Positions 2,849-61,711 of a stretch of 64,000 nucleotides of DNA are shown in pieces. This DNA comes from Dehalococcoidia bacterium (GTDB lineage Bacteria; Chloroflexota; Dehalococcoidia; SpSt-223): positions 62,001-126,000 of the forward strand of contig JANWZD010000012.1 in assembly GCA_025054935.1 (NCBI GenBank). Reading direction: 5' to 3'. Below the pieces are notes generated by a model, which ran no database searches, was not told the origin of the DNA, and saw only the letters and a program-made list of their open reading frames with translations. Each line of letters starts with the position of its first letter. The first letter of the stretch is position 1. A program made the translations under genes and the position numbers.

Positions 2849-4248
2849 GTCTCGATCACGCGGATGGCGGCGAGCGCATCGGGCGGGGTCGTGAAGGGAT
2901 CGCGGTCAAGGACGATGAAATCCGCGGCCGCGCCGATGCGGAGCGCGCCGTCCTTCGACGCGGGGTCGAGCGCGGCGCGGCCGCCGACGCTGGCACGGAG
3001 CGCGGCGCGGAGCGGCAACGCTTCTGCCGGTGAGAGGAGCGTTCCATCGGCAGCGCGGCGCGTGACTGCTGTCGCGAGCGCCCCAATCGGGTCGGGCTCG
3101 CTCGCTGGCGCGTCGGAGCCGAACAGGATCGGAATGCCGGCGTCGAGAAAGCTCCGTCCGCGGTGGAGCCAGGGGAGGATCGCGGCGTCGACCTCGGCGA
3201 GATAGCGCGCTGCCCGCTCCCGAACCCAGCTTGGATGGACGACGACCGTAACACCGGCTGCGCGCGCCGGCGCGAACAGGTCGGGCGGCCATTCGGCGGC
3301 GTGCTCAATCCGCGCCGGGACGCCAGCTGCGCGCGCCGCTTCCACTGCGAGGCGCACCGCGGGATGAATGACGGCATGGATCGCGACCGGCCGGCCAATG
3401 GCGCTCAGCCGCGCGGCGAGGGCCTCGAGTGACGGGAGTTCGTCCGGCAGGTCGGGCAGCATCACCTTTGTCGGACCGACTGCAAGCAACGGCGTCGCGG
3501 GAAGCGCTGCCTCCGGTCCGAGAACGGTCGTCTCGCCGGGAAGGAAGAGCAATCGGAACGGCGGCGCCTGGTGAGCCCAGAGCGCCAGGCGCGCTGCGTC
3601 GTTCGTCGGGCTGGCGTCGTGGACCGCCGTGATGCCGCGGGCGAAGAGCGAAGCGGCGACCGATGCGAGCCCGCGGCGTATCTCCTCTGCGCTCAGGGGC
3701 GGCACGACCGCGCCCGAGAGCCAAGCGGCTGGTTCCCACAGGCGGCCGGTCGGCTCGCCATCCGCGCCATACTCGACATATCCAAGCTGCTGGCCGCGCT
3801 CCCACACTGCTGGCGGGATAGCGCGGAGGGCGGGCGAGTTCATCACGGCGAGATGCCCCGTGCGGTGCAGGAGGCGGACGGGCCGCGTGGTGGCGGCATC
3901 AAGGTCAGCGCGCGTCGGGTGGAGTGCGCCGAGGTCGTAGCCGGTGGCGCGCACCCAGCCAGTGCCCGGCGCGGCGGCAAGGCGGGCGAGCAGCGCTGGG
4001 AGCGAGGAGACGCCGCGGCAGTCGACGCCGACCGCGCGCTCAATCAGCGGAAAGAGATGGAGATGGGCGTCAGCGAAGGCCGGCAGCACGGCCGCGCCGG
4101 GCAGGCGGACCCGGGGGGCTTCAGCCGGCTCCTGAAAGCCGACGACCCTCCCCTCGCGGACGAGCATCGCCGAGCGCGGAGGGCCGGCGAGCGGCAGAAT
4201 CCGGGGGTGGACGAAGCAGGTGAGGACCGACCTGGTATGTTTAGCCAT
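2809..4248 (-). CDS. Metal-dependent amidohydrolase, YtcJ-like
   Basis: 479-residue member of the amidohydrolase superfamily, cytoplasmic (no signal peptide). The metal-binding HxH appears as DAHLHLF in the first quarter, and the late catalytic Asp sits in FGSDAPASEPDPIG, the YtcJ/exoenzyme-regulatory subfamily pattern. Such proteins hydrolyse amide or imide bonds of poorly defined small molecules; the substrate is not predictable. I chose ATG at 4248 because the open frame continues upstream without homology-like sequence. That start lies 13 bp from the start codon of the divergent molybdoenzyme gene. The 3' end overlaps the end of the convergent GGDEF gene by 40 bp. Confidence 0.85.
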   Translation of the reverse strand: MAKHTRSVLTCFVHPRILPLAGPPRSAMLVREGRVVGFQEPAEAPRVRLPGAAVLPAFADAHLHLFPLIERAVGVDCRGVSSLPALLARLAAAPGTGWVRATGYDLGALHPTRADLDAATTRPVRLLHRTGHLAVMNSPALRAIPPAVWERGQQLGYVEYGADGEPTGRLWEPAAWLSGAVVPPLSAEEIRRGLASVAASLFARGITAVHDASPTNDAARLALWAHQAPPFRLLFLPGETTVLGPEAALPATPLLAVGPTKVMLPDLPDELPSLEALAARLSAIGRPVAIHAVIHPAVRLAVEAARAAGVPARIEHAAEWPPDLFAPARAAGVTVVVHPSWVRERAARYLAEVDAAILPWLHRGRSFLDAGIPILFGSDAPASEPDPIGALATAVTRRAADGTLLSPAEALPLRAALRASVGGRAALDPASKDGALRIGAAADFIVLDRDPFTTPPDALAAIRVIETYCAGARVWPPSS

Positions 4249-41481: not shown

Positions 41482-41554
41482 ACGAGTGTAGCTCAGTTGG
41501 TAGAGCAGCGGTCTCCAAAACCGCCGGTCGGGGGTTCGAGTCCCTCCACTCGTG
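41482..41554 (+). tRNA. tRNA-Trp (CCA)
   Basis: Complete cloverleaf: acceptor ACGAGTG pairs with CACTCGT, anticodon stem GCGGT/ACCGC with loop CTCCAAA giving anticodon CCA (41515-41517), T-loop GTTCGAG. Discriminator G; the 3' CCA is not encoded. Confidence 0.96.
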
Positions 41555-41574
41555 CCAGCCGGTCCGGCTGTGAT

Positions 41575-41656
41575 GCCCAGGTGGTGGAATAGGCAGACAC
41601 GCCGTCTTGAGGGGGCGGTGCCGAAAGGCGTATGAGTTCAAATCTCATCCTGGGCA
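41575..41656 (+). tRNA. tRNA-Leu (GAG)
   Basis: Class II tRNA of 82 nt. Acceptor GCCCAGG pairs with CCTGGGC; anticodon stem CCGTC/GGCGG with loop TTGAGGG gives GAG; the long variable arm is TGCCGAAAGGCG. T-loop GTTCAAAT. Discriminator A. It lies 20 bp after tRNA-Trp. Confidence 0.95.
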
Positions 41657-41672
41657 CCGACGGGAGATCGCA

Positions 41673-41702
41673 AGGGCGGGAGAAAGCGCTCCCGCCCTTT
41701 TT
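41673..41702 (+). terminator. Rho-independent terminator after tRNA-Leu (GAG)
   Basis: A perfect 10-bp stem, AGGGCGGGAG and CTCCCGCCCT, with a 6-nt loop (AAAGCG), followed directly by a run of T. Confidence 0.92.
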
Positions 41703-41783
41703 CGTCGGCCGAGGGCAGGCGTCTAGCGAGGCGGGGGGGCGGTGTGGTACGATGCGTGCAGAGCGTGGGCATGCCCAGTCGCT

Positions 41784-41855
41784 GGCGACGTAGCCAAGTG
41801 GTAAGGCAGCGGTCTGCAAAACCGCGATTCACCGGTTCGAATCCGGTCGTCGCCT
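41784..41855 (+). tRNA. tRNA-Cys (GCA)
   Basis: Acceptor GGCGACG pairs with CGTCGCC; anticodon stem GCGGT/ACCGC with loop CTGCAAA gives GCA. T-loop GTTCGAA; discriminator T as usual for Cys. It follows the terminator, so it should have its own promoter. Confidence 0.96.
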
Positions 41856-41878
41856 CCTGATCCGGTCTTTTCTTGCCT

Positions 41879-41959
41879 GGGACAGTGGTGGAATGGCAGA
41901 CACAGCGGGCTTAAACCCCGCAGCCGCAAGGCGTGCGAGTTCGAGTCTCGCCTGTCCCA
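41879..41959 (+). tRNA. tRNA-Leu (UAA)
   Basis: Class II tRNA. Acceptor GGGACAG pairs with CTGTCCC; anticodon stem GCGGG/CCCGC with loop CTTAAAC gives TAA; variable arm AGCCGCAAGGCGT. T-loop GTTCGAG; discriminator A. Probably co-transcribed with tRNA-Cys 23 bp upstream. Confidence 0.95.
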
Positions 41960-42017
41960 CCTGCTGGTGCAGCCCCTCCCCCCCTTCTCGACCCGCCTTC
42001 TTCTTCCCTCACCGGCA

Positions 42018-46898: not shown

Positions 46899-47772
46899 TG
46901 GCGAGACTGCGGGCGAGGTCTGCGGGCAGGGCGAACGCCGCCAGGTGGATTTCCGGGGTGTAGTAGCGCGTGGGGATACTTTCCAGCCGGCGGGCGATCT
47001 GAGCGCGTGACACCGAGGCGAGGTCGAAGCCGTTTGTCGCGGCGAGGAAGCTCCAGATCACGCCGGGGTAGGACGGAATGCTCGCCAAGTACGGCGCGAC
47101 GACGGGAAAAACGCGGCGCAGCTGGCGCGCCGCGCTGCCCAGCTCTGCCCCCATTAGGAGCGGTGAGCCGCTCTGCGTAACGAACACGCCGCCTGCCGCA
47201 AGCGCCCGGAAGACGGAGCGGTAGAACGCCTCGCTGAAAAGCGCTTCTGCCGGACCGACCGGGTCGGTGGAGTCGACAAGGATGGCATCGAACTGCTCCT
47301 CGGTCTCGGCAAGATAGCGCGCGCCGTCCCCGATGATCAGCTCGGCGCGCGGGTCGTCGAAGGCGCCGGCTGCGATCTCGGGCAGGTATCGCCGGCAGAC
47401 CTCCACCACTGCCGCATCCAGCTCGACTTGGATAGCGCGCTCGACGGTCGGGTGCTCGAGGACACGCCGAAGCGCGCCGCCGTCGCCGCCGCCGATGATC
47501 AGCACCCGCCGCGGCGCCGGCAGGGCGCAGAGGGCCGGATGGACGAGCATCTCGTGGTAGATGTGCTCATCGACAGTCGAGGTCTGGATCGCCCCCTCGA
47601 GGATGAGGGTCGTTCCGAGAAGCTCCGTTTCGATCACCTGGATCGATTGGTGCGGCGACCGGCCGCGGTAGATCTCGCGGCGGACGCGGTAGCCCTGCCG
47701 ATAGCCGTGGAGCGGCGCTTCAGCGAACCAGTGTTCCCGCGGGAACACGGGCTCGGGTGTCGACAATTCCAC
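46843..47772 (-). CDS. speE: Spermidine synthase-family aminopropyltransferase
   Basis: 309 residues. N-terminal beta hairpin with SPHQSIQVIETELLGTTLILEG, then the decarboxylated-SAM site VLIIGGGDGGALRRVLEH and the catalytic Asp region LVDSTDPVGPA. It moves aminopropyl groups from decarboxylated SAM to putrescine or agmatine. With pdaD upstream and no putrescine-forming decarboxylase nearby, agmatine is the likely acceptor (inference). GTG 47772 has GGAG 8 nt upstream and lies 53 bp inside speD, so the genes are tightly coupled. Confidence 0.93.
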   Translation of the reverse strand: MELSTPEPVFPREHWFAEAPLHGYRQGYRVRREIYRGRSPHQSIQVIETELLGTTLILEGAIQTSTVDEHIYHEMLVHPALCALPAPRRVLIIGGGDGGALRRVLEHPTVERAIQVELDAAVVEVCRRYLPEIAAGAFDDPRAELIIGDGARYLAETEEQFDAILVDSTDPVGPAEALFSEAFYRSVFRALAAGGVFVTQSGSPLLMGAELGSAARQLRRVFPVVAPYLASIPSYPGVIWSFLAATNGFDLASVSRAQIARRLESIPTRYYTPEIHLAAFALPADLARSLASDQDDAVGLLPRTATVSR

Positions 47773-48103
47773 GCTTCATCTCCATGACTTGAACGTGCCC
47801 GGGCGCGAAATAGCGCTGGAGCACTGGCGCCACTTCTTCTGGGCGCACTTTTTTGCCGCAAGTGAAGACATCCACCGCCGCATAGCCCAATTCGGGCCAG
47901 GTGTGGATCAAGATGTGCGACTCCGAGATCACCGCAACGCCGGTAACCCCTTGCGGCGTGAAGGGATGAATGAACAACTCGAGCAGCGTCGCGCCGCATG
48001 CCTCGGTTGCTTCAATGAGCGCGCACCGCACGGCCTCGACCGAGTCGAGGTTCTCGTTACAGCCCCACATCTCCATGATGAGGTGGCGACCAACACTTTC
48101 CAT
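47720..48103 (-). CDS. speD: S-adenosylmethionine decarboxylase proenzyme (prokaryotic class 1B)
   Basis: 127 residues. Self-cleaves between Glu61 and Ser62 in VISESHILIHTWPE, converting Ser62 to the pyruvoyl group. His67 and Cys82 (FTCG) match the conserved processing and catalytic residues. It supplies decarboxylated SAM for both SpeE and BpsA. ATG 48103 is preceded by AAGGGGGG. It follows pdaD by 11 bp and overlaps speE by 53 bp. Confidence 0.95.
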   Translation of the reverse strand: MESVGRHLIMEMWGCNENLDSVEAVRCALIEATEACGATLLELFIHPFTPQGVTGVAVISESHILIHTWPELGYAAVDVFTCGKKVRPEEVAPVLQRYFAPGHVQVMEMKRGIVDTRARVPAGTLVR

Positions 48104-48114
48104 CGGTACCCCCC

Positions 48115-48576
48115 TTACCAGAGCATGACGGCTGCAACCGTGCAGCCATGCCGTTCCACGCGATGCTCGCACGACTCTAGGATGAGCTCGTGCAAATCCA
48201 GCCCGCGGCGCGCGAACGCCTCTTCGACCTGCTGCCGGACGATCCGCTCAGCCTCAGCCGCTGTCATCGCGCCGGCATGCTCGAAGATGACGCCGTACTG
48301 GTCCTTCGACCGCCCGATCCCGACGCAGCTTGCGATCACTTGGCCCGGAGTGGCGCTTTCTGCGACCGAATAGACCACGGGGGCGAGGGTCCCTTCGACC
48401 AGATGGCTCGGCCGCTCATACATCCGCTGCGCGCCTTTCGGCAAGATGCTGCTCACTCGGATCAGGTTCAGGTTGCCCATTCCTGCTGCGAGGAGCGCAT
48501 TGTCGAAGGCGTTCAGTTCGGTGCCGCCCTCAGCGGCGCCGGAGGTGACCCAGTACCGCTCAGGAACTTGCCACAT
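48115..48576 (-). CDS. pdaD: Pyruvoyl-dependent arginine decarboxylase
   Basis: 153 residues, the archaeal-type enzyme that makes agmatine from arginine. The proenzyme cleavage site is Ser42-Ser43 in LIRVSSILPKGA. The catalytic region IFEHAGAMTAAEAERIV with its conserved Glu matches the family. The start (MWQVPERYWVTSG) overlaps the end of bpsA by 17 nt. PdaD is frequent in archaea and scattered in bacteria. Confidence 0.94.
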   Translation of the reverse strand: MWQVPERYWVTSGAAEGGTELNAFDNALLAAGMGNLNLIRVSSILPKGAQRMYERPSHLVEGTLAPVVYSVAESATPGQVIASCVGIGRSKDQYGVIFEHAGAMTAAEAERIVRQQVEEAFARRGLDLHELILESCEHRVERHGCTVAAVMLW

Positions 48577-49642
48577 CGGAATCCCTCTTGGTGTGGAGTA
48601 GGCTCTCCGCGCCGACGTAGAGGGTCGCCTCATCGACCGGCGCGGCGGCGAGGACCGAGTCCTCGAATGTTTCGATCCGGTAGAGCGACGACCGGTACCA
48701 GTGCGTGAGCGGCGGCCGACGGAGCGGCGGCAGGTCGTCGCGCACGCTGCCCACGAGATAGTCCCAGTTCTCGTAGGTGCTGAAGTCGCGAACGATGTCG
48801 GTGATCGCAACCCGGTAATAGCCGGTCAGCCGCGCCTGAAGGGCGCGCCAATTGCGGAACGACGACTCAATGACCGTCATCCCGAAGTAGCCGGCACAGC
48901 CGGCACCGCGCAGCGACTCTAGGCCGCGACCAATGAACAGTTCGAGGCCGGCGAGCGTATCGGGCGGGTCGGTGAAAAAGGTATGGAAGGCGCCCGCGAG
49001 CGAAGATGGAAGAGGGTCGCGCAGGTCAACGGTGAGAACGTCGAGGGCCAAGCGCTCAGCCGCTGCCACCTGCCGGATGAACTCATTCAGCCGCTCATCG
49101 ATCTCGACGACCACCACGCGGTTCGGCAGGCCGGTCAGCGCGGCTGCGATCCCGATCAGGTCGTCGTCGCCGAGGACGATCAGGTCGCGCCCGGCGAGAT
49201 CCCCGCGGTCGGCAAAGGCGGCGAGGCGCGCAAAGACGGTGTCTGTCGTGACGTAGGCTTGGTCGTAGACGGCAATGGGACGGGGACGTCCCTCCGCGAT
49301 AGCGTCAAAGCGGCGGCGCGCCTCGGCAAGCTGCTCGTCGCTGACGCCGCGCCCAGCGCAGGCGGCGCAGCGCAGCGAGGGCGGCGGAACCGCGTTCCGC
49401 TCGGCGGCAAGCGCTCGTCCTCGTTCAGTGAGCGCGATCGACGTCTCTCCGACGTCGGCGAGCCCGTCGGCAGCGAGCACCCGCACCGTCTCGACAACTT
49501 GGTTGAACGGACACTTCGCGAGATCCACCGCCTGCCAGATGTCGGCCGCAGCCGGGAGGGCGGCCAGGATCCGCTCGATATCCCGTTCTGTCGTCGGGAT
49601 CGCGGTTCGTTCGCTGACAAGGGCAGCTAGCCGGGCATACAA
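48560..49642 (-). CDS. bpsA: Branched-chain polyamine synthase BpsA (N4-bis(aminopropyl)spermidine synthase)
   Basis: 360 residues. An N-terminal winged-helix-like region (about 1-85), a CxxC pair (Cys92, Cys95), then the BpsA C-terminal domain (about 120-345). Key motifs are GDDD (158-161, in IVLGDDDLIGIAAAL) and DPPD (225-228, in FFTDPPDTLAG), as in Thermococcus BpsA, which adds two aminopropyl groups to spermidine from decarboxylated SAM. Start is TTG 49642, supported by GGGGGAGA 5 nt upstream; the nearby ATG is out of frame. First gene of the operon bpsA-pdaD-speD-speE-speB, behind a leader of about 210 nt. Confidence 0.92.
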   Translation of the reverse strand: MYARLAALVSERTAIPTTERDIERILAALPAAADIWQAVDLAKCPFNQVVETVRVLAADGLADVGETSIALTERGRALAAERNAVPPPSLRCAACAGRGVSDEQLAEARRRFDAIAEGRPRPIAVYDQAYVTTDTVFARLAAFADRGDLAGRDLIVLGDDDLIGIAAALTGLPNRVVVVEIDERLNEFIRQVAAAERLALDVLTVDLRDPLPSSLAGAFHTFFTDPPDTLAGLELFIGRGLESLRGAGCAGYFGMTVIESSFRNWRALQARLTGYYRVAITDIVRDFSTYENWDYLVGSVRDDLPPLRRPPLTHWYRSSLYRIETFEDSVLAAAPVDEATLYVGAESLLHTKRDSDVASS

Positions 49643-57460: not shown

Positions 57461-57838
57461 ATGGACGAGCGGGACTGGCTGCTGATCGACGGCGGCTGAG
57501 GCTTCTGACGCCGCGCTGCTGCCTGGGTGCAGCGGCAGGACCGCCGTGGGCGGTTCCGGATTGTTCCCTATCAAGACGCGCCGTCACCCCCCATGACGCC
57601 GGCGCTCCGCGCTGCCTGCGCGCGGGCAGTGCACGTTGTCACTGCCGACGGCCGAACGCTCCGCGCTGGCCGTGCCACGCTCTATGTTCTCGCCGCGATC
57701 GGCTTTCGCCGTCTTGCCTCGCTGCTCTCGCTGCCGCCGCTCCTTCCCGTCGTCGAGCTCGCCTATCGGATTGTCGCGAATAACCGGCCGCTCTTTGGCC
57801 GTCTCTTGTTCACCAAAGAGACGCCGCTCGAGCGGTGA
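57461..57838 (+). CDS. Probable UxxU selenoprotein: DCC-family thiol-disulfide oxidoreductase
   Basis: Reading from ATG 57461 through two in-frame TGA codons gives a 125-residue protein that matches the DCC family over its whole length: LLIDGG-TGA-GF-TGA-RR at the site of the DGxCxxC redox motif, RFRIVPYQDAP, AVHVVTADGRTL, and LPPLLPVVELAYRIVANNR. The two TGAs (57497-57499 and 57506-57508) fall exactly on the two cysteines, giving Sec13 and Sec16. A stem-loop follows (57515-57536). TGA is an ordinary stop elsewhere in the window. A pseudogene would need both stops to hit the two active-site cysteines and nothing else. No selenocysteine machinery is in the window. DCC proteins are redox proteins of unclear partner. 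Confidence 0.75.
57515..57536 (+). promoter_or_regulatory. SECIS-like stem-loop for UGA recoding
   Basis: An 8-bp stem, GCTGCTGC with GCAGCGGC (one G-U pair), closes a 6-nt loop CTGGGT containing GGU, as the E. coli fdhF loop does. The loop begins 24 nt after the first TGA and 15 nt after the second. Confidence 0.6.
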
Positions 57839-57894: not shown

Positions 57895-59016
57895 TCACGG
57901 CGACTGTCCGTCCGGTCTCACCGGCAGGATCTGCACTGCCGCGGCGGGGATCGTGAACGCGATCGTCTCTCCCAGTCGCTTTGCCGCGCGCTCCCAGCTG
58001 ATCCGAGGCACTTCGATTTCGAGGTCGTAGTCGCGCTCGGGCGTCAGCCGCGGGCCGGCGAGCCGCACGGAGAGCACAACGGCGTTCCGCTCGACGACGG
58101 CATCGACGATCGTCCCCTCCGCCGCGGTGCTGTGCTCGTCCGCTGCCGGCGGGTCTACCGCGATCGCGTCGCTGCGAACGCACACCCACACCGGCGCGCC
58201 CGGTGCCGGCCCCGGCTCGGCAGTCCGGGCGATCACGCGCCGCTCGCCGACGCACGCGCAGACAGCCGCGCCCTCAACCCGCTCGACCTGCCCGCGCCAG
58301 ATATTGCGGACGCCGGTCAGTTCGGCGACGCGGACATCGCGGAAGCGCCGCAGCAGTTCCTCAGGCGCGCCCACCTGCAGAACCTGTCCGGCGTCGATTA
58401 CGGCGACCCGGTCGCCGAGAACGAGGGCCTCGGAAAGGTCGTGCGTGACGAAGAGGGTCGGCACCGCGAAGCGCCGCTGCAGGCTCCGCAGGGCCCGCCG
58501 CAGCTCGATCCGGGTCGGGGCGTCGAGTGCCGAGAGCGGCTCGTCGAGCAGCAGCGCCTCGGGACGGATGGCGAGCGCGCGCGCCAAGGCGACGCGCTGC
58601 TGCTGGCCGCCGGACAGCTGGGAGGGGCGGCGGCTGGCGAGCTCTGTCAGGCCGGTCAGTTCGAGCAGCTCATCGACCCGGCGGCGGAGCTCCGCTCGGG
58701 GCACGCCGCGCAGTCCGAAGGCGACGTTCTCGACGACCGTGAGATGCGGGAAGAGGGCGTAGTTTTGGGGCACATAGCCGACGCGGCGCGCTTGCGGCGG
58801 GAGGAAAATCCCCGCCCTGCTGTCGTAGACAACCCGGCCGTTGAGGACGATGCGTCCGTCCGTCGGCCGCAGCAGCCCGGCGACGGCCCGCAGCGTCATC
58901 GACTTGCCGGCGCCTGATCGCCCAAGGAGGACGAGCACCTCGCGGTCGGCGGACAGAGCGATGTCGAGCTGAAACCCCGCCAGCTGGTGGCGGATGCTCA
59001 CCTCCAGCGCGGTCAT
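57895..59016 (-). CDS. modC: Molybdate ABC transporter ATP-binding protein
   Basis: 373 residues. Walker A LGRSGAGKS (about 31-39), signature LSGGQQQRVALARAL, Walker B LLLDEPLSALD, switch His FVTHDLSEAL. The C-terminal region (about 235-370) contains the MOP/TOBE-type regulatory domains expected of ModC-like ATPases. Start overlaps the modB stop by 4 nt. Together with modA and modB it imports molybdate or tungstate. Convergent with the probable selenoprotein gene. Confidence 0.93.
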   Translation of the reverse strand: MTALEVSIRHQLAGFQLDIALSADREVLVLLGRSGAGKSMTLRAVAGLLRPTDGRIVLNGRVVYDSRAGIFLPPQARRVGYVPQNYALFPHLTVVENVAFGLRGVPRAELRRRVDELLELTGLTELASRRPSQLSGGQQQRVALARALAIRPEALLLDEPLSALDAPTRIELRRALRSLQRRFAVPTLFVTHDLSEALVLGDRVAVIDAGQVLQVGAPEELLRRFRDVRVAELTGVRNIWRGQVERVEGAAVCACVGERRVIARTAEPGPAPGAPVWVCVRSDAIAVDPPAADEHSTAAEGTIVDAVVERNAVVLSVRLAGPRLTPERDYDLEIEVPRISWERAAKRLGETIAFTIPAAAVQILPVRPDGQSP

Positions 59017-59687
59017 GGCGGCGACGCGACCAGCTTGCGCGAGACGGTCTGGACGGCGGCGAGGAGCGCGATCGAGAAGACCGACAGGATGGCGACGAGG
59101 AGGGCGGCGAGCTCAAGGTCGTTCGCCTGCACCGCGTCGTAGATCGCGATCGAGAGGGTTTGGGTCTTGCCGGGGATGTTGCCGGCGACCATCAGGGTGG
59201 CGCCGAAATCGCCGATGGCGCGGGCGAAGGCGAGCAGCGTCCCCCCCACAATGCCCTGCCAAGCGAGCGGAAAGGTCACCAGCCAGAACACCTCCCATTC
59301 CGACCGGCCGAGCGTGCGGGCGACCTGCTCGAGGCTGACATCGACCGCTTCGAACGCCGCGCGGCTGGCTTGGGCAACAAACGGAAAGGAGGCGATGGCT
59401 GAGGCGATCACCGCGCCCCGCCAGCTGAAGACGAGCGGGATCCCGAGCGCCTCGAAGATCGAGCCGATGACGGTGCCGCGGCCGAGGAGAACGAGCAGAT
59501 AATAGCCGAGCACCGTCGGGGGCAGGATGAGCGGCGCGGCGACGAGAGCGCTCAGCACCTCGCGCCCGGGGATGCGCCGCCGCGCCAAGCACCAGCCGAC
59601 CGCGACGCCGGCCACGAAGTTGAGCAGCGTCGCCAGCAGCGACACCTGGATTGAGAGAAGCAGCGGGAACCAATCGATCGCGCGCAT
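59013..59687 (-). CDS. modB: Molybdate ABC transporter permease
   Basis: 224 residues with about five helices. Family blocks LILPPTVLGYYLLVLLGR and the EAA-type loop EQVARTLGRSEWEVFWLVTFP are clear, followed by GTLLAFARAIGDFGATLMVAGNIPG (read as parts). ATG 59687 overlaps the modA stop by one base. Length matches ModB. Confidence 0.94.
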   Translation of the reverse strand: MRAIDWFPLLLSIQVSLLATLLNFVAGVAVGWCLARRRIPGREVLSALVAAPLILPPTVLGYYLLVLLGRGTVIGSIFEALGIPLVFSWRGAVIASAIASFPFVAQASRAAFEAVDVSLEQVARTLGRSEWEVFWLVTFPLAWQGIVGGTLLAFARAIGDFGATLMVAGNIPGKTQTLSIAIYDAVQANDLELAALLVAILSVFSIALLAAVQTVSRKLVASPP

Positions 59688-60481
59688 CAGGGGCTCGCCG
59701 GCGGCTCGAAGCCGTAGCGCCCGAGGAGCGCTTGGCCCTCGGGGCTCATCACGAGGCTGACGAAGGCGCGTGCGTCTGCCTCGCTGCGCGTCCGCCGCAG
59801 GATCGCGAGCGCCTGATCGAGCGGGCGGTGGAGCTCCTGCGGTACCAGCGTCCAGCGGAGCTGGGTCGGAATGACCAGCGCAACGGCAACAATGCCCGCG
59901 TCCGCTTGGCCGGTCTGGACATACTGCATCGCCTGCTGGACATTCTCTCCGTACACCAGCCGCGGCCGAAGCGTGCCCCACAGCCCGAGCGCCTCGAGTG
60001 CGTCTTGGGCGGCAACGCCGTAGGGCGCATGCTCAGGGTTCGCGATCGCGATGTAGCGGATCGAGGGAGCGGTCAGGTCGCTCAGGGCGCTGACCGGCAG
60101 GTTCAGGGCTGGGCTGGTGACCAGCGCTAGCCGTCCGCGGGCGTAGCGCTGCTCTGTTCCCGCCACGGTGTGGCCGCCGCGCTTCAGCCGCTCGATGAAC
60201 GCCTCGTTCGCAGCGAGGAAGACGTCGAACGGCGCGCCCTGCTCGATCTGCTGCGTCAGCTGCCCGGTCGACCCGAAGGTGAGGGTCGCTGCCTGCCCGG
60301 TCTGCTCCTGGTAGAGGCGCGCGATCTCGGCCAGCGCCGGCCGCAGGTCGGCCGCTGCCGCCACCTGGAGCGCCCGCTCACGCTGCGCCTGCTGCTGCAC
60401 TGTCGCGGCGAAGGTGAGGGCGAGGGTCGCGATCACAACGCCAAGCGCCATCCCGCCGGCGATCAGCATCCGCCGCTCCAT
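59687..60481 (-). CDS. modA: Molybdate-binding protein
   Basis: 264 residues. An N-terminal hydrophobic segment (about 5-27) acts as signal or anchor; there is no lipobox Cys. The mature part begins LQVAAAADLRPALAEIA and has FGSTGQLTQQIEQGAPFDVF and the later DAGIVAVALV motif, matching ModA. It binds molybdate (or tungstate) outside the membrane and delivers it to ModB. First gene of modABC. Confidence 0.93.
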   Translation of the reverse strand: MERRMLIAGGMALGVVIATLALTFAATVQQQAQRERALQVAAAADLRPALAEIARLYQEQTGQAATLTFGSTGQLTQQIEQGAPFDVFLAANEAFIERLKRGGHTVAGTEQRYARGRLALVTSPALNLPVSALSDLTAPSIRYIAIANPEHAPYGVAAQDALEALGLWGTLRPRLVYGENVQQAMQYVQTGQADAGIVAVALVIPTQLRWTLVPQELHRPLDQALAILRRTRSEADARAFVSLVMSPEGQALLGRYGFEPPASP

Positions 60482-60583
60482 CTCACGGTCTCCCGGGGCC
60501 GCCCTGAAACGCGTCTCGACTGCTGCGCCCGCGGTGAGCGGGCGAGCGCGCCTCTCTCCGCAGAGGGGCCGGCGGACGCGCGG

Positions 60584-61711
60584 TCACGGGCGGCCGTTCG
60601 CCGGCCCTGCCACCTCGGCGAGCAGGGTGCCGAGCTGATCGACCTCGTAGCCGGGCAGGGCGCGCAGTTCCTCCCGCAGTGGGCCGCTCTGCAGAAGGTC
60701 GAGCAGGAGCGCGATAGCGGGGTGGTCGAGATGGTCGCGCGGGATCGTCAGGTCGAACTGGGCTTCGGCCAGCGGCACAAACTCGAGGCCGAACGCGTCT
60801 GCCGTGGCCCGCAGGGCGATCCCGGCGTCGGCGCTTCCCGCTGCCACTGCCCGCGCCACGTCAAGGTGGCTTGAGACGACGCGCTCATAGCCGAGCACCG
60901 CTGTCGCCGGCGCGCCGAGCGCGGCGAGCCGATCGTCCAGCAGCGCCCGACTGCCCGAGCCTGCTTCTCGATTGACAATCCGGACGCCCGTTCCCACCAG
61001 GTCGGCGACCGCGCGCAGTCCCTTGGGATTGCCCGGCGCGACCACCAGCCCCAGTTCCCAGCGGGCGTAGCGCACGACGATGCCGCCGGTCGCGGCGAGA
61101 GCGCGCTCGGCGTGCGGCAGATTGAACGCTCCGGCAGCGGGATCCCACAGGTGCGAGCCCGCAACGTGGGCTTCTCCGGCGGCAACCGCTGCGAGCGCTG
61201 CCTCGCTCGGAGCCGGGAACCAGAGCAGCCGACGGTCGGCATGGTTGCGGGCAGCGTGGGCGCAGACGATCGAGAGGCTCGGGTCGCAGCCGACGAGGAC
61301 GGCCGTCCGCTCAAGCTGCGCGCGGGGCGCGAGCAGGCGGATGCGCGCGGAGTGGCCGCCGGGCGCAAGGAGACCGTCGGCGGGGGCGAACCCGTCGAGC
61401 ACGTCGCGGCCGGCCGCAAGCGAGTAGCCGACCCACTGCTCGCGCACCCGGGCCACCGCAAGACGGCTTCCTCGCCCTGGCGCGACTGCGGAGAGGCGCA
61501 GTCGGCCTACCTCGCTCAGCTCAGGCTCGGCGAAGAGATCTTCCACTCGGCAGCGAAGCACCTGGGCAAGCCGCAGCGCGACAGCGGTGTTCGGCACCGC
61601 GCGGCCCGTCTCGATCGCGTTCATCGCTTGGCGCGACAGCCCAACGCGCTCGGCGAGCGCCTGCTGCGACAAGCCGGCCTGCAGCCGCGCCGCGCGCACT
61701 CGGTTTTCCAA
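60584..61711 (-). CDS. HTH regulator fused to a PBP-like domain (molybdate-responsive candidate)
   Basis: 375 residues. An XRE-type helix-turn-helix (about 1-55, LSQQALAERVGLSRQAMNAIETGR) is followed by a short linker and a periplasmic-binding-protein-like domain (about 90-360, PF12727-like: GSHLWDPAAGAFNLP, GLRAVADLVGTGVRIVNREAGSGSRALLD in parts). Related proteins near mod genes sense oxyanions and replace ModE. Start is TTG 61711; GTG 61699 is an alternative. It is upstream of modA on the same strand (102 bp), so may autoregulate and control modABC. Confidence 0.88.
   Translation of the reverse strand: MENRVRAARLQAGLSQQALAERVGLSRQAMNAIETGRAVPNTAVALRLAQVLRCRVEDLFAEPELSEVGRLRLSAVAPGRGSRLAVARVREQWVGYSLAAGRDVLDGFAPADGLLAPGGHSARIRLLAPRAQLERTAVLVGCDPSLSIVCAHAARNHADRRLLWFPAPSEAALAAVAAGEAHVAGSHLWDPAAGAFNLPHAERALAATGGIVVRYARWELGLVVAPGNPKGLRAVADLVGTGVRIVNREAGSGSRALLDDRLAALGAPATAVLGYERVVSSHLDVARAVAAGSADAGIALRATADAFGLEFVPLAEAQFDLTIPRDHLDHPAIALLLDLLQSGPLREELRALPGYEVDQLGTLLAEVAGPANGRP

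Follow-up and report, generated by a model that had tools for sequence, protein, structure and literature searches.

The window analyzed here, a stretch of 64,000 nucleotides from a Chloroflexota MAG of the class Dehalococcoidia, harbors on its plus strand a DCC1-like gene (PF04134) of 125 codons, which extends from an ATG at 57461 to a terminal TGA stop at 57836-57838 and contains two internal TGA codons as candidate selenocysteine (Sec) codons. As claimed in the original prediction, the frame is continuous and interrupted only by TGA codons at 57497-57499 and 57506-57508, the putative Sec13 and Sec16. Both are part of the redox motif DGGUGFU (57488-57508, plus strand), which aligns with the DGxCxxC motif of 10 relatives in such a way that U replaces both C, the first and the second catalytic Cys, respectively; a relative from the same genus (G003) carries TGC at both codons. 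The DG and the motif positions are invariant among the aligned family members. With Sec read as Cys, the window protein matches PF04134 with 63.1 bits (cut-off 27.8, E = 7e-17), which is its sole Pfam match, and its length agrees with that of the family. Family match and alignment thus confirm the predicted placement of the TGAs exactly on both Cys of the motif. The DCC family ends at the terminal TGA, and G003 also has a TGA at about this position. A mechanical ORF list reports a GTG-initiated frame of 103 aa (57527-57838) that lacks the active site, so that automatic annotation would indeed truncate the gene as expected.

The source assembly comprises 3.57 Mb in 93 contigs with an estimated completeness of 96.8%. 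A complete set of genes for Sec synthesis and insertion, the presence of which had been proposed as a check, was found in this genome: selA (559 bits), selB (329 bits, above the cut-off), selD (397 bits) and a tRNA-Sec (68 bits), which is also called as tRNA-SeC with a UCA anticodon by ARAGORN. The selD frame (L131) has a single in-frame TGA, which occupies the catalytic position (GAGUACK) and is followed by two hairpins with loops 14 and 33 nt from the UGA. Because selD itself contains a UGA, the Sec machinery is most likely in use, and judged by its sequence selD is a classical selenoprotein gene, giving the genome at least one of this kind. The two-hairpin layout of selD resembles the two hairpins after the second UGA of the window DCC gene. 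A formate dehydrogenase-like match in the source genome has no in-frame stop. TGA is the ordinary stop in 8 of the 13 picked ORFs of at least 200 aa around the locus, which argues against a genome-wide reassignment of UGA.

The relative G003, whose sequence corresponds to the public MAG Dehalococcoidia bacterium KatS3mg060 (L048), contains a CxxC-type DCC gene with 81% identity that starts from the same ATG and is located in the same place, between genes for an alpha/beta hydrolase and an ABC ATPase. A comparison of both genes revealed conservation before and after the TGAs without indels, with a dN of 0.13 and a dS of 1.0 over the whole gene (dN/dS about 0.13). Codons 1-12 alone show about 6.5 synonymous versus 2.5 nonsynonymous differences, and the other two frames have the opposite bias. 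In a tree of 90 DCC proteins the end branch of the window protein (0.058) is shorter than that of its G003 sister (0.16), which is unlike a decaying gene. Taken at the level of sequence, the window DCC gene is a constrained protein-coding gene under purifying selection on both sides of the TGAs. A third genome of the order, from the same genus (G044), has a DCC homologue (L029) with 46% identity, the match of which does not include the N-terminal part with the motif.

No conserved gene-neighborhood partner of the DCC genes was found; the alpha/beta hydrolase and the ABC ATPase recur next to the DCC gene of the same-genus relative only, and the neighbors of the other UxxU DCC genes are varied. 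In one case (L106) the gene directly after the UxxU DCC gene, at 3350-4030 on the plus strand, encodes a TMEM164-family membrane protein (PF14808, E = 3e-48). In the window, the region at 57895-61711 on the minus strand appears to encode a molybdate/tungstate ABC transporter, consisting of an ATPase (matching ABC_tran), a permease and a binding protein, and after it a helix-turn-helix regulator that contains a binding-protein-like domain. Further away, three adjacent genes at 47720-49642 (minus strand) form a possible polyamine cluster, as their translations resemble S-adenosylmethionine decarboxylase, pyruvoyl-dependent arginine decarboxylase and a branched-polyamine (aminopropyl) synthase, and four tRNA genes (Trp, Leu(GAG), Cys and Leu(UAA)) are clustered at 41482-41961 on the plus strand.

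Our survey of DCC genes covered Chloroflexota and combined a search for PF04134 in 400 Chloroflexota genomes with a search that used the window protein as query in 393 genomes of its class and with a search of one further class. TGA-containing DCC genes are common in these data: 27 of the 90 compared genes, i.e., the window gene and 26 others, carry TGA in at least one of the two motif codons, and the motif states are distributed over 17 UxxU, 5 UxxC, 5 CxxU and 63 CxxC genes. These states were read from the motif codons, as raw TGA counts sometimes include the terminal stop (L118, L104 and L105). Within the core, defined as 6 codons before to 84 codons after the first motif codon, all 44 in-frame stops of the 90 genes are TGA and all are located at the two motif codons, with the reservation that the pattern used to choose the CxxC control set rules out TAA as well as TAG and that one of these stops is present in a small number of weak or partial PF04134 matches from the raw searches. 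Unrelated stops or frameshifts, which had been named as evidence against the original prediction, were thus not observed in the compared relatives. Three genomes (G793, G787 and G789) each have a DCC match with one TGA and one TAG, which may stem from the end of a shorter gene or from a copy in decay, and no DCC relative was found in viral contigs.

The subfamily of the window protein (YQxAPSPPMTP) includes two more UxxU genes from the Chloroflexota genomes G479 and G680 (L116 and L117). The tree of these 90 proteins requires 12 motif-state changes, and its well-supported branches force at least six changes between CxxC and Sec states; it is a quick tree based on few columns, in which L125 and L129 form long or compositionally odd branches. 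Among the tested genomes with Sec-type DCC genes, selA was found in all except G477 (95% complete) and G680 (77% complete). As a contrast, an association of selA with Sec-type DCC genes is uninformative, since most tested Chloroflexota with CxxC forms also have selA.

Directly downstream of the motif, the RNA of the window gene can form a putative bSECIS hairpin (57515-57536, plus strand) with an 8-bp stem (57515-57522 paired with 57529-57536) and the loop CUGGGU (57523-57528). The predicted 8-bp stem with a GGU-containing loop is therefore present, whereas the stated 24 nt after the first TGA refers to the distance to the loop and not to the stem: 23 nt lie between the first TGA and the loop, and 14 nt between the second TGA and the loop. 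The published bSECIS model demands a loop of 3-9 nt with a G in the first two loop bases, a stem of 4-16 bp, 16-37 nt between UGA and loop and an MFE of at most -7.5 kcal/mol (PMC13188914). In the MFE fold of the window the distance to the second UGA is below this range and the loop opens with C and U. For the first UGA, a fold with an extra C-G pair and the loop UGG at 24 nt conforms to all rules (-12.0 kcal/mol); this loop stands 15 nt from the second UGA. An alternative fold (57516-57538, plus strand) with the loop GGUG at 57526-57529, 26 nt from the first and 17 nt from the second UGA, agrees with the model in all respects. It is less stable than the MFE fold (-11.5 versus -13.3 kcal/mol, a difference of 1.8 by direct evaluation) and does not lie within 3 kcal/mol of the MFE once dangling ends are counted. 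The rules for the second UGA also fit a second hairpin (57538-57556, plus strand; loop GUG at 57546-57548) at a distance of 37 nt. We set this hairpin aside as a dedicated SECIS for the second UGA, since the CxxC relative has the same hairpin, and from the sequence it probably arises as a side effect of the conserved codons for DRRGRF.

Compared with dinucleotide shuffles, the folding energy in the window is unremarkable (z about -0.9). Shuffles give no signal because the region is G+C-rich, and we used random synonymous recodings at matched third-position composition as a control instead. Relative to such recodings of the same peptide, the window folds more strongly (z -2.32, p = 0.022), whereas the CxxC sister G003, which lacks the SECIS-candidate hairpin of the window, does not (z +0.14). 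The same difference was found across the family, with the tests treating related sequences as independent: 25 of 27 Sec genes have a hairpin that conforms to the bSECIS rules with respect to both UGA positions at once, compared with 11 of 62 Cys genes (Fisher, 2e-11), and the mean z against synonymous recodings is -1.94 for Sec (n = 26) and -0.31 for Cys genes (n = 62; Mann-Whitney, 7e-8), i.e., the Sec genes have the stronger folds. Most UxxU genes carry one qualifying hairpin, whose distance is 16-28 nt to one UGA and 9 nt more to the other. The UxxU gene L034 has no rule-conforming hairpin, and the UxxC gene L125 has one only for its single UGA position. The clearest SECIS forms were observed in the CxxU genes (GCGCUG-GGUC-CAGCGC with 17 nt between UGA and loop), including the divergent L129.

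In an AlphaFold model of the window protein, computed with Cys instead of Sec (pLDDT 83.3, pTM 0.76), residues 13 and 16 are located after the first strand at the start of the first long helix (14-26). This predicted arrangement would correspond to that of thioredoxin-like oxidoreductases, to which a fold search lends weak support: the best PDB match is mycoredoxin-1, followed by GSTs, with E values of 0.06 or worse and TM scores under 0.5. No solved structure that matches the window protein by sequence was found.

Could the two TGAs be explained without Sec? A pseudogene or an assembly error would mean that two TGC-to-TGA changes disabled the gene or arose in the assembly, and the source genome is a MAG in 93 contigs. 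Two random in-frame TGAs, however, would land exactly on both Cys codons of 125 with a chance of 1.3e-4, and the gene has no other stop or frameshift. The strong purifying selection and the short end branch also speak against decay, and a misread TGC would have to be reconciled with the same TGAs in many other, independent genomes, which makes this explanation very improbable. Expression only as the 103-aa downstream ORF from the GTG at 57527, with the TGAs ending an upstream leader and no Sec involved, is exactly what the mechanical ORF caller reports. Such a protein would lose the first strand and the whole catalytic motif, although the aligned family members do not vary at the DG and the motif positions and the first 12 codons are conserved with the relative mainly by synonymous differences, and we give this possibility very little weight.

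Read-through of UGA as Cys or Trp is known from other systems, and a near-cognate or suppressor tRNA could in principle act in this way here instead of tRNA-Sec. The usual role of TGA as a stop in the neighboring genes and the complete Sec system in the genome argue against it, as do the restriction of the TGAs to the catalytic Cys codons and the finding that hairpins go with the TGA forms and not with the Cys forms, so that decoding as Cys or Trp seems highly unlikely as well. By contrast, the original prediction of a double-selenocysteine DCC protein is supported by the Sec machinery, the motif-codon TGAs in relatives and the enrichment of hairpins. We consider it highly likely on these genomic grounds that the locus is a functional gene for a UxxU-type, DCC1-like predicted thiol-disulfide oxidoreductase in which both UGAs specify Sec; its product very probably contains two selenocysteines.

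The mechanism that we infer, from actual Sec insertion to physiological function, would be as follows. Translation would start at the ATG at 57461, and the hairpin that closely follows the motif would recruit SelB with Sec-tRNA-Sec. The UGAs at 57497 and 57506 might then both be decoded as Sec from this one hairpin, before translation would end at the TGA at 57836. By analogy with known UxxU proteins, the selenols of Sec13 and Sec16 may cycle through a reversible diselenide, and it seems feasible that the enzyme reduces a disulfide or peroxide-type substrate. Beyond the single locus, we lean, with some reserve, towards the view that the DCC1-like proteins are an overlooked selenoprotein family of Chloroflexota with repeated replacement among UxxU, UxxC, CxxU and CxxC and, in the UxxU forms, a single SECIS for two UGAs 9 nt apart and a diselenide enzyme as product.

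An inventory from May 2026 lists 119 prokaryotic selenoprotein families or subfamilies, none of them under PF04134, DCC or DUF393, and UxxU is found there in Prx-like PF00578, in metal-binding NF041115 and in FmdB proteins (PMC13188914). A search of the full-text open-access literature for DUF393 or COG3011 together with selenoprotein terms gave nothing relevant. A Sec form of the DCC family therefore appears to be undescribed in that inventory and in the open-access literature; the suggested novelty of a UxxU DCC protein holds against the inventory, while the UxxU motif itself is already known in other families. The DCC1-like proteins would thus constitute a new family of selenoproteins, while the type of motif and the insertion system are known. 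They probably extend the set of selenoprotein families by one whose genes are cut short or overlooked in standard annotation. All four motif states are represented among close homologues, which provides a natural series for comparing a second selenium with a selenenylsulfide or a disulfide. Furthermore, the UxxU forms can probe whether one SECIS serves two UGAs, as most of them carry one qualifying hairpin.

Compared with known systems, the candidate SECIS of the window resembles the E. coli fdhF type in that its apical loop contains GGU and lies 14-17 nt from the second UGA, and the CxxU relatives do so with a GGUC loop at 17 nt. It differs from this type in the six-base loop CUGGGU of the MFE fold and in the two UGAs, 9 nt apart, that precede one hairpin. 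With the DCC1-like family PF04134 (DUF393) the window gene shares the sequence family, the place of DGxCxxC and the length, but both catalytic Cys codons are TGA. The Prx-like UxxC/UxxU selenoproteins (PF00578) likewise have a UxxU redox motif in a predicted thioredoxin-like oxidoreductase, but they are a different family, to which the window protein has no match. The same holds for the metal-binding (mercuric reductase-like) NF041115 and the FmdB (TIGR02605) proteins, which also have UxxU with two Sec (PMC13188914, Table 1) but consist of unrelated domains, and neither of these NCBIfam models matches the window protein. A precedent for a diselenide motif is given by SelL (Shchedrina 2007, as cited in PMC2398784), which again belongs to a different family from the window protein.
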